IMG/VR virus record: IMGVR_UViG_3300034082_001433
Span: 1 to 42,207 of that record
Source: a virus
Length of the DNA stretch: 42,207 nucleotides
Strand: one strand, 5' to 3'
Within the stretch, counting starts at the first letter, position 1; each line of letters starts with the position of its first letter. A program made the translations under genes and the position numbers. Below, piece after piece: positions 29,745 through 36,863 of this stretch. Under the pieces are notes generated by a model, which worked only from the letters and a program-made list of their open reading frames with translations, searched no databases and was not told where the DNA came from.

Positions 29745-30139
29745 TCACTGGTCTCACCCAGCTAGGCTTGCGCCTTCCACTGCTCGCGACTGCTTCCCAA
29801 TTTATCGTCCATCGGCACCCGTGGTAGGGCCTGCGATGCGCATCGGCCTGACATTCTAGTGTCAGTGATCCTTGGGATAGGACTGCTGGGCCTTGACCTG
29901 CCCAGCATCAGGAAATAGGTGGGGATGTTTGATAGAATAAACAGTTTTGAACCTGCCCTACCGTGCCGTCCACGGACTTGTCTATCAACCACATTACAGG
30001 CCAACTTGATCCGGCGTGCTCGTCCTCCCAGAGGCTCTGGGTGATCTGCTTTCGTGTATTCCAAGTAGAGCCTAGCCGTCACTAGGAATAGTTCTCTACT
30101 TGGGTACCTACCGGAGTTGGTAACCCCTAATCTCTAACT
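29745..30139 (-). ncRNA. Candidate structured non-coding RNA, ~390 nt, own promoter
   Basis: Read leftward from about 30139. No credible ORF. Many local helices are visible: CCAAGTAGAG pairing with CTCTACTTGG (30061-30103, 10 bp, nested CCTAG/CTAGG), GGGTTACC-type hairpin (30102-30126), CCCAG/CTGGG (30027-30041), CCGTG/CACGG (29961-29975), TGTTT/AAACA (29926-29943), an 8-bp TGCTGGGC hairpin (29884-29907), CTGACA/TGTCAG (29848-29865), CGATG/CATCG (29834-29845) and AGGC-GCAA-GCCT with a GNRA loop (29764-29775). GGTAGGGC (29823-29830) and GCCCTACC (29955-29962) can close a multi-branch region. No U-tract terminator. Family unknown. Confidence 0.75.
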
Positions 30140-30145
30140 GTCTCT

Positions 30146-30174
30146 ATTGTAACACCAGTTGCTCAAACTGTCAA
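30146..30174 (-). promoter_or_regulatory. Early promoter TTGACA-17-TACAAT for structured RNA
   Basis: -35 perfect, -10 TACAAT one off. The -35 holds the TGA stop of the preceding gene. No ribosome site or gene start follows for 370 bases, so the product is probably the RNA. Confidence 0.85.
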
Positions 30175-34453: not shown

Positions 34454-35665
34454 TCAAGCCGTCTCGGCCTCCGTCTCATAGATCACTGTCTGTCCAAACG
34501 GTGCGTTGGCCTGTGTGTTGCCTTTGACAATGAATATGGTATCGCAGTAGTCCTCGTTGCCCCAACCACCGCAGGGGTAGCCGTCTGTGAACATAATGAA
34601 CTTCTTGGGTTGGATACCATTCTCTTCCATAAAGGTCCAGTTGACTTCAAAGTCTGTGCCACCACCACCCTGAGGCTCATACTCTTCCAACTCGTGACTC
34701 TCATCGTGTGTGATGGTCTTCCAGTTGTAGATGTCTGTGTCAAAGCACCACAGGTTGATGCGGTAGTCTTCGTACTGGTCCATAATGCCTTTGATCTCGC
34801 TGAGGAATGCAGTTGCATCTTCTTCACCAATGGAGCCTGACATATCAATAGAGATAGCCACGTCAATGGTAGTTGCTTCTTTCATACCTGGCAGGATAGC
34901 ACCTGAATGCATACTCTTGCGATTCACACGCTGAAAGGAGTAGTCGTTGCGAACAATGCTTTGGATCTCTTGTTGCACCAACTGGCGCCAATCGATCTTA
35001 GGCTCAGTCATAGACTTGATCATACGCATAATGCCTGCAGGAGTCTTGCCTGCACCAGCGGCCGCGGCACTTTGGATCATTGCTTCTTTGATCTCTTGAC
35101 GCAGGGTTTCGGCTTCTTCTTTGCTGAGGCTAGGCTTAGACTTACCGTCTTTGGTCTTATCATTACCAGCACCAGCACCTTCTTCTTCTTTGATATGCTC
35201 GTCTAGGAGTTCACCCAATTGCTTGAGCAATTGATCCATAGGGATCTTCTCTGCCTTCTCCCAAAGCTCATCATAGATCTCTTCCCAGGCCATGCCGCGA
35301 TACTTTGGATCGTAGCAGATCTTCACTTCAGTGATCTTCTCACCAATGCGTTCGTCTACAAGGATCTGGTTGACAGCGTAGTCTTGTGCGATGTTCGCCA
35401 ATGTACGATCTCTGCTACCGCAACGACCAAAGTGATCGAATATGGCATGACAGATTTCGTGTGCGAACAGGAACTCTAGTTTCTTAACGGAGAGCTTCTT
35501 AACGAACTCTGTGTTATACATAAAGTCACGACCGTTAGTTGCGGCTGTGGGGCACCAGTCATCGCTTTCAATAAGGCGCATACGAGTGGCCATATTGCCA
35601 AAGAAAGGCGCTTTGAGTAGCAGGCCTACTCGGGCAGTTGTAAGTTTCTCTACGATTGGGTCCAT
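34454..35665 (-). CDS. Metallopeptidase-like/VWA protein (DUF2201 type)
   Basis: 403 residues. HEICH (69-73) is a zincin HExxH motif in the N-terminal metallopeptidase-like domain. An acidic/Ala-rich linker follows. A von Willebrand A domain carries the MIDAS motif DMSGS (274-278), with Thr and Asp in QGGGGTDFEVNW and FTDGYPCG. AAGGAG is 8 bases upstream of the ATG. It pairs with the MoxR ATPase encoded upstream: MoxR/VWA pairs remodel protein complexes or insert metals. Its target in infection is unknown. Confidence 0.8.
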   Translation of the reverse strand: MDPIVEKLTTARVGLLLKAPFFGNMATRMRLIESDDWCPTAATNGRDFMYNTEFVKKLSVKKLEFLFAHEICHAIFDHFGRCGSRDRTLANIAQDYAVNQILVDERIGEKITEVKICYDPKYRGMAWEEIYDELWEKAEKIPMDQLLKQLGELLDEHIKEEEGAGAGNDKTKDGKSKPSLSKEEAETLRQEIKEAMIQSAAAAGAGKTPAGIMRMIKSMTEPKIDWRQLVQQEIQSIVRNDYSFQRVNRKSMHSGAILPGMKEATTIDVAISIDMSGSIGEEDATAFLSEIKGIMDQYEDYRINLWCFDTDIYNWKTITHDESHELEEYEPQGGGGTDFEVNWTFMEENGIQPKKFIMFTDGYPCGGWGNEDYCDTIFIVKGNTQANAPFGQTVIYETEAETA

Positions 35666-35690
35666 ATGTCGCTCTCCTTAGTATGTGTAT

Positions 35691-35719
35691 ATTATAGCAT
35701 CGTTTTACACATCTGTCAA
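35691..35719 (-). promoter_or_regulatory. Early promoter TTGACA-17-TATAAT
   Basis: Perfect boxes; drives the VWA gene. Confidence 0.9.
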
Positions 35720-35720
35720 C

Positions 35721-35762
35721 CAAAAAAGGTGGGCGGACAAGCTCTGAGAAGCTCTCCGCCCC
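35721..35762 (-). terminator. Rho-independent terminator after MoxR gene
   Basis: GGGCGGA ... TCCGCCC, 7-bp GC-rich stem, then a stretch of six Ts, directly before the next -35. Confidence 0.85.
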
Positions 35763-35777
35763 TGCTATGGCGAGGTC

Positions 35778-36863
35778 TTAATTCTCCATGGCACTCAAAA
35801 CATACTTGCCAAAACGCTTGTGGAACTCATCGAAGCTCTTCATCTTCGTAGCGTCCAAGGGCAAGTCATAGTTGGTAAGTGCAGTCTTAGCACCCATCAC
35901 AACCAGCTCAGTTGGGAAATTGTCCATCATATAACGGAAGAAGCAGTCTGCCATAGCATCCCAACCCTTGGCCTTCTTCTCTGCCTGATCCTTCAACTCA
36001 TAGCACAGGCTAACAGTCAAAGAATACATCGCTGACACTTCTTTGATCTGCAAGTCCTTGACCTTACCGCTGAGGATGTCCTCTGCCTTGGGCAAGCGTC
36101 CTGCGATCTTGCGGTGAGCCATAAACTTAGTAGCCAAGCCATCACCTACGGCACCCGCAATCAATGTTGCCAGTGTGTCGTTGTCGCAGTCGTCGTCTTG
36201 CAGGAGATCGCTGACGAACACCCAAGAGCGTGGAGTAGCAAATGCCTTTGAAGGGCTCTTAGGATCAAAGTCATAGAGGTCTTGCTTGGCAAAGCCTACA
36301 TAACCTACGACCTCTGGATGCACCTTGTTCAAGGTAGCCCAGTCTTGGAAGTCATCAAAGTCTACCTTCATCTCCAAGTGGACGAAGCGGTTAGCCAACG
36401 GAGCAGGCATACGATATGTCACGCCACGATCGCCTTCACGGTTACCTGCGGCAACCACGTCAACACCCTTGGGCAATTCGTATGTACCAACACGACGGTT
36501 CAGGATCAACTGATATGCCGCGGCCTGTACAGCAGGGGGTGCAGAGTTCAACTCATCCAAGAAGATGATCGCAGTAGACGCTGGGTCTGTAGGCAGTTCT
36601 GCAGGAGGTGCCCAAACCATCTTGCCCTGGTCTGCGTTGTAATAGGGGATGCCCTTGATGTCTGTGGGTTCCCACAGGGCTAGTCGAACGTCAACGACTT
36701 CACGGCCTGCTGTCTCGCCAATCTGCTTGACAACATCGGATTTGCCAATGCCTGGAGGGCCCCAAAGGAATGTAGGACGACGAGTTTGGATCGCCTTACG
36801 GATCGCCTTCATAGCACCCTTAGGACCTACTTGACGGACGGAAATATCTGTGCTTTTTGCCAT
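35778..36863 (-). CDS. MoxR-family AAA+ ATPase
   Basis: 361 residues. Walker A GPPGIGKS (35-42), Walker B IIFLDELN (99-106), sensor-1 region VVAAGNREGDRG and R-finger area PAPLANRFVHLEM are in MoxR order. GKVKDLQIKEVSAMYS and the C-terminal domain follow. Expected to form a hexamer that uses ATP to remodel a partner, most likely the VWA protein next door. Each has its own promoter, so ratio can be set independently. AGAGG is 8 bases before the ATG. Confidence 0.85.
   Translation of the reverse strand: MAKSTDISVRQVGPKGAMKAIRKAIQTRRPTFLWGPPGIGKSDVVKQIGETAGREVVDVRLALWEPTDIKGIPYYNADQGKMVWAPPAELPTDPASTAIIFLDELNSAPPAVQAAAYQLILNRRVGTYELPKGVDVVAAGNREGDRGVTYRMPAPLANRFVHLEMKVDFDDFQDWATLNKVHPEVVGYVGFAKQDLYDFDPKSPSKAFATPRSWVFVSDLLQDDDCDNDTLATLIAGAVGDGLATKFMAHRKIAGRLPKAEDILSGKVKDLQIKEVSAMYSLTVSLCYELKDQAEKKAKGWDAMADCFFRYMMDNFPTELVVMGAKTALTNYDLPLDATKMKSFDEFHKRFGKYVLSAMEN

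Follow-up and report, generated by a model that had tools for sequence, protein, structure and literature searches.

Two structured RNA families of phage tRNA islands stand in tandem behind a sigma70-type promoter in a viral contig

Introduction

Phage tRNA islands are known to hold just a few conserved classes of structured RNA, of which GOLLD and ROOL build RNA cages. The tRNA cluster of phage T4 holds the small stable RNAs C and D, of unknown function. GOLLD and ROOL, structured RNAs of phages and prophages, often lie near tRNA islands, and their function is likewise unknown (PMC12286853). Theta ribozymes, which are HDV-like, adjoin phage tRNA genes (PMC10879173), and phage ICP1 makes an abundant ncRNA of ~800 nt from an ORF-less gap, its most abundant phage transcript (PMC7567579).

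Here we analyse a stretch of viral DNA of 42,207 nt (the window; IMG/VR record IMGVR_UViG_3300034082_001433, positions 1 to 42,207), in which a first-pass annotation had proposed a phage non-coding RNA gene of about 390 nt with its own sigma70 promoter at 29745-30174. A non-coding RNA gene behind its own sigma70-type promoter is indeed supported, whereas a single RNA of ~390 nt is not: the span consists of two unrelated modules in tandem, RNA-B and RNA-A, which other phages carry independently of each other. Like GOLLD (RF02032), both are structured phage RNAs of tRNA islands, but GOLLD is often longer than 800 nt and assembles as a 14-mer nanocage, whereas RNA-A has 155 nt, RNA-B ~220 nt, and their structures are different. 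ROOL (RF03087) also lies near tRNA islands and is pseudoknotted like RNA-A, yet its model has 574 positions. Theta ribozymes are minimal self-cleaving HDV folds that cut at the tRNA 3' end; RNA-A and RNA-B are larger, lack the HDV strand order and occur also without tRNAs. With the T4 RNAs C and D, known by description, the likeness is one of place only, and the ICP1 ncRNA, likened by description only, differs in length. A search of open-access literature on phage tRNA-cluster RNAs yielded papers on GOLLD, ROOL, theta ribozymes and ICP1, and no earlier description of RNA-A or RNA-B.

Promoter, coding potential and known RNA families

The features of the locus are collected in Table 1. The promoter, placed as in the first-pass annotation, reads TTGACA-17-TACAAT on the minus strand (30174-30146) with a TG before the -10 element. 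Among standalone copies of RNA-B, five of eight are preceded at 10-20 nt by an 11/12 promoter, at the place where array copies have a tRNA; array copies reach at most 9/12. Between 28364 and 33556, the minus strand of the window carries eleven sigma70-type promoters of 11-12/12, most of them ahead of single small genes. The span was said to hold no credible ORF, which agrees with our results: the longest ORF (106 aa, GTG start, 29762-30082) has no Pfam match, a frame stays open through RNA-B in 0/45 homologues and through RNA-A in just 2/38, so that no ORF is conserved. A terminator-like site was looked for at the 3' end and none was found, in line with the reported lack of a U-tract.

Table 1. 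Positions of the promoter, the two RNAs and their structural elements in the window
Feature	Position	Strand	Evidence
Sigma70-type promoter, TG-extended -10	30146..30174	-	11/12 consensus; L127 RNA-B preceded by same promoter
RNA-B, ~220 nt, structured	29919..30139 (approx.)	-	covariance model R2 29905-30136, 205.7 bits; 55 distinct homologues
RNA-B long arm: outer GUA/UAC, P3 (CCAAG/CUUGG), P3b (CCUAG/CUAGG)	30056..30107	-	covariation counts
RNA-B long-range H1 (CCAAC/GUUGG + CCGG/CCGG), closes first domain	30001..30120	-	covariation counts
RNA-B second domain: P5 (UUGAUAG/CUAUCAA), P6 (CCGUG/CACGG), P7	29929..29988	-	P5, 6/7 pairs with double-sided change
RNA-A, ~155 nt, structured, three pseudoknots	29762..29917	-	covariance model R1, 183 bits
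RNA-A 5' H-type pseudoknot: PK1 (CCU/AGG) + P1 (UGCUGGGC/GCCCAGCA)	29884..29913	-	9 pairs with double-sided change
RNA-A PK2 (UCCCAA/UUGGGA), closes core	29795..29877	-	invariant in 38/38, hence outside the reach of covariation
RNA-A P3 hairpin	29848..29865	-	double-sided change in 5/6 pairs
RNA-A P5 (CAUCG/CGAUG) + P6 (GCCC/GGGU)	29810..29838	-	7 pairs with double-sided change
RNA-A PK3: CCAC of P6 loop with GUGG	29777..29824	-	GCAC/GUGC in L002, L072
RNA-A P7, 3' GNRA hairpin (GGC-GCAA-GCC)	29765..29774	-	2/3 pairs covary
Hairpin P8 (CUGG-GUGAGA-CCAG)	29745..29761	-	by eye: CCAG/CUGG in L011; CCGG/CCGG in L019, L044

The window has no match to any family of Rfam 15, at the gathering score or at E up to 10, and neither ARAGORN nor Rfam finds a tRNA or tmRNA in it, which bears out the earlier view that RNase P and tmRNA are not involved. 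For the RNA-A copy L072 and for L110, Rfam likewise gave nothing beyond chance or flanking-tRNA matches. A relation to large ornate RNAs had also been suggested, and in part this stands, as GOLLD occupies the same tRNA islands in three of the phages tested, which it shares with RNA-A or RNA-B (G002:141221-141685, G004:362284-362748, G025:164359-164824); its distance is ~2 kb or less, from RNA-A in G002 and from RNA-B in G025. However, the GOLLD covariance model, which matches these three at the gathering score, misses the window. As GOLLD sits at positions other than those of RNA-A and RNA-B and is absent from the window, the two RNAs are different families in a shared niche. The ROOL model matched none of 15 records, where no positive control matched either, and the window had no cmscan match.

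The folding energy of the whole span is just mildly low (z = -1.66; 8 of 100 shuffles were equally good) and is uninformative for the span as for RNA-A. The case was therefore made to rest on homologues, which show overwhelming compensatory change in both RNAs and retain their stems through it; together with the lack of an Rfam family, this agrees with the earlier proposal that the RNA is new.

RNA-A is a pseudoknotted RNA family

A distant blastn match to Bordetella phage PHB04 (unannotated, 47164-47280) served as the seed for RNA-A, and IMG/VR was then scanned for two strings conserved between the window and PHB04, TCCTATCCCAAGGATCA and ACGATAAATTGGGAAG. Both strings occur at constant spacing in most contigs, and the pattern scans place RNA-A in about 55 IMG/VR contigs, mostly fragments, besides PHB04. 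Since the fetching patterns fix some bases, the apparent invariance of these strings is partly by construction.

Alignment A3, with 38 distinct copies, supports nine helices (PK1, P1, P2, PK2, P3, P5, P6, PK3 and P7), including three pseudoknots. The helices are paired in 97.2% of cells, and 24 pairs show double-sided change, a level that none of 500 shuffles reached; 169 cells are doubly compensated, versus 37 expected from shuffling, and sliding the partners gives no more than 26. In L072, the most divergent copy, all five P5 pairs are kept with other bases. One further pair, 29788 with 29785, also covaries and closes the two-base loop of a small hairpin. The local stems of the first-pass annotation are present, and its GNRA hairpin is P7 (29774-29765). 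Beyond the 3' end, many copies without a tRNA on that side have the P8 hairpin, as judged by eye and not by a formal count. RNA-A is thus a new RNA family with a common structure that covaries across diverse genomes.

The compact, pseudoknotted cores of the two RNAs, their strings of invariant nucleotides and the onset of RNA-A 1-7 nt past a tRNA in many arrays would suit self-cleaving or otherwise catalytic RNAs that mature tRNAs in the manner of theta ribozymes. The strand order argues against this, as the covarying strands of RNA-A run PK1-5', P1-5', PK1-3', P1-3' with nothing between them, which is a plain H-type pseudoknot and does not match the double-nested HDV order of theta ribozymes. 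Given also the lack of an Rfam match and the standalone copies without a tRNA, we regard a ribozyme as very unlikely.

RNA-B is a second family

RNA-B came to light when the 5' half, taken for a leader, was compared with the other loci and matched L017, L026, L029 and L038 over 96-99 bases at 83%; these matches sit in tRNA arrays, in slots other than those of RNA-A. A pattern scan of IMG/VR returned 77 contigs, 55 of which are distinct true copies, and a looser pattern returned 85. In alignment A5, built from 45 copies, eight helices are paired in 94.7% of cells, with 37 pairs showing double-sided change (0/500 shuffles as high) and 282 doubly changed cells versus 95 in shuffles. Folding the window copy on its own by energy, independently of the alignment, recovers the main helices (z = -2.74), and on held-out contigs that are not in the model R2 scores up to 226 bits. 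P3b shows double-sided change in all five pairs and is paired in 100% of cells; the two parts of H1 are paired in 95.6% and 100%, with five pairs changed on both sides. RNA-B, too, is a new RNA family with a covarying common structure across diverse genomes.

The terminal stem of RNA-B keeps its pairing while its sequence varies, with double-sided change in 13 of 15 pairs; in the window copy this outer stem is weak (6/13 pairs). Its inverted-repeat ends, together with insertion beside tRNAs, would recall a MITE-like mobile element whose inverted ends make the terminal stem. The compensatory change in that stem and the single copy of RNA-B make such an origin scarcely credible.

Two modules rather than one RNA

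RNA-A is single-copy in all 16 records tested (24-364 kb), and so is RNA-B in 21 of 21, bar one second match of 18 bits. RNA-B was found in 8 of 24 RNA-A records (three of these matches are weak), on the same strand and within about 2 kb; the 22 RNA-B records selected for lacking a known RNA-A have none. L127 lacks RNA-A: there, the promoter of the window and an almost identical RNA-B run straight into a coding sequence. The independent occurrence of the two RNAs and the arrangement in L127 indicate that the unit in the window is two cassettes placed together. They adjoin in the window and L039 only, whose sequences agree fully across the 11.7 kb compared; their co-transcription may thus be recent.

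The first-pass annotation had linked the span by an 8-bp long-range pairing of 29823-29830 with 29955-29962. The complement is exact and the modules are contiguous behind one promoter, as expected of one continuous RNA of ~390 nt joined through this pairing. Yet RNA-A and RNA-B are apart in every other genome that has both, except the identical L039, the complement is absent from the RNA-A copies L002, L019 and L072, and its RNA-A side lies within P6 and PK3, which both covary. The RNA-B side is an invariant single-stranded segment, and phages that lack RNA-A retain it. One continuous RNA is therefore highly improbable. The pairing bridges the modules at the expense of RNA-A helices that covary, and so lacks support as a helix that defines the fold. 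Chance, or contact of one RNA with the other, may account for it, but it does not form the backbone of a single fold. We also considered intermolecular pairing of RNA-B with RNA-A and rejected it, as the complement, scored by eye, is present where a genome has both RNAs, yet many genomes without RNA-B have it too, and it is inseparable from ancestry.

Genomic context

Both RNAs are usually cassettes inside phage tRNA arrays. In several arrays (e.g. L005, L006, L015, L018 and L041) RNA-A lies 1-12 nt from tRNAs on both sides, and this tight packing sets a limit of about 155 nt to the mature RNA; its neighbours vary among Tyr, Val, Met, Pro, Cys, Asp and Phe tRNAs. Elsewhere RNA-A comes after the stop codon of a small CDS, or lacks any nearby tRNA. 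In L011, L042-L046, L052, L053 and L056, RNA-A comes directly after the stop of a conserved small ORF ending in GHSHQSY, where it would be the 3' UTR of that mRNA. The PHB04 copy, at 47135-47292 of that record, is located 0.7 kb past tRNA-Met, tRNA-Asn, tRNA-Pro and a tmRNA; all of these, like RNA-A itself, are unannotated there.

Several neighbouring elements were recorded along the way. Permuted-type (betaproteobacterial-like) tmRNA genes were found in L002 (1898-2269), L009 (6265-6783), L016 (4118-4489), L055 (1660-2077) and L131 (6795-7147), and L055 also has a group I intron (RF00028, 5670-5872) about 0.9 kb downstream of RNA-A. Just upstream of RNA-A, L049 and L059 carry a T-arm and CCA remnant (GGGGATCGGATCCCC..GCCGCCA) that resembles a truncated tRNA or minihelix. 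More stem-bounded inter-tRNA modules, of the types AAACAC..CTTCAGCGG..GTGTGTTTTCATATAG and AAAACACATT..GTGTGTTTCTATATGG, occur in L012, L016, L025 and L031 (upstream of RNA-A) and in L006 and L007, and are probably further unlisted structured RNAs.

RNA-B adjoins tRNA-Glu(UUC) in 40 of 44 array copies, 28 times after it and 12 times before it; Glu makes up 5.8% of the tRNAs in these loci. No probability is put on this adjacency because related phages are not independent, and shared ancestry could be its source. Where RNA-B follows a tRNA, its terminal helix usually extends into the tRNA ACCA, which is paired by a UGGU on the far side.

This pairing, the closeness of RNA-B to tRNA-Glu and the position of both RNAs within untranslated arrays would also fit cis-acting processing or antitermination signals of stable-RNA operons (put/EAR-like), which would help RNA polymerase across long untranslated arrays or guide tRNA cleavage. 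Such signals are unlikely here, as many copies have no surrounding tRNA (those of the window, L127 and L121, and RNA-A behind the small CDS), and the positions within arrays are scattered and not promoter-proximal, with one copy per genome. Action in trans is favoured over action in cis because tRNA processing would sever RNA-A from its neighbours in arrays, and because a cis element should hold a fixed place there, while the positions vary.

RNA-A was found in none of 369 Gammaproteobacteria genomes, and 12 pattern matches in genome_contigs all lacked the remainder of RNA-A; searches for a bacterial or plasmid origin gave no match. As to a universal protein partner near RNA-A, no family is common to more than 15 of 40 loci. 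An RNA-guided nuclease was considered on account of the PHROG label 'HNH endonuclease' at 34457-35665 of the window and set aside: by Pfam, the region encodes a DUF2201 metallopeptidase/VWA protein and a MoxR-like ATPase (34457-36863 together), and the label looks wrong.

A role as decoy or antidote RNAs against host defence, i.e. tRNA-targeting nucleases or toxins, is suggested by the phage-only occurrence in the searches made, the single copies in tRNA islands and the link of RNA-B with tRNA-Glu(UUC). Type III antitoxins are H-type pseudoknots, which also speaks for it. However, ToxI-type antitoxins are short tandem repeats, whereas RNA-A and RNA-B are single long RNAs, and no defence partner was identified. 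We consider this role unlikely; being one way of acting in trans, it overlaps with the reading that we prefer.

Discussion

Our preferred reading, to which we give a probability of roughly 0.7, is a two-gene stable-RNA unit, in which a promoter is followed by RNA-B and then RNA-A, members of two new phage RNA families that mature with tRNAs and act in trans. In the window, the sigma70-type promoter would drive RNA-B and then RNA-A. In arrays, RNA-A would be cut from a tRNA-type precursor, out of the gap between two tRNAs, and RNA-B would be freed by cleavage of its long terminal helix, paired in many arrays with the ACCA end of the upstream tRNA; standalone copies would be transcribed directly. 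Once mature, the RNAs may work in trans, as compact particles of RNA or of RNA and protein. What is envisaged for the ends, processing and abundance of both transcripts is predicted from sequence. A stable trans-acting RNA fits a cassette that can draw its transcription from a tRNA operon, the 3' end of an mRNA or a promoter of its own, and it fits RNAs that are single-copy, conserved in structure and untranslated.

The two RNAs most probably serve to support or shield the phage's own translation machinery in the course of infection, which would place them in the niche of GOLLD and ROOL; the task of RNA-B would be tied to tRNA-Glu(UUC). The tRNA/tmRNA islands and the absence of RNA-A from the bacteria tested suggest a role in translation takeover or in countering defences that attack tRNAs.

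More tentatively, and with less than even probability, RNA-A and RNA-B may be catalogue-orphan classes that belong, as single-copy components, to the core of the RNA islands in large phages rich in tRNAs, with RNA-B working on or with tRNA-Glu(UUC). If so, RNA-B would, for example, guard tRNA-Glu(UUC) or couple its 3' maturation to infection, and the islands would be a multi-RNA machine of tRNAs, tmRNA, GOLLD, RNA-A and RNA-B and not a tRNA store. The link of RNA-B with tRNA-Glu(UUC) provides a specific, testable hypothesis, and the presence of RNA-A in the cultivable Bordetella phage PHB04 offers tractable material on non-tRNA RNAs in infection. Phage records of up to ~367 kb thereby gain two more compact classes, each present once and with its structure under strong selection. 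With each family present in dozens of phage genomes, phages carry more conserved RNA machinery than has been catalogued.
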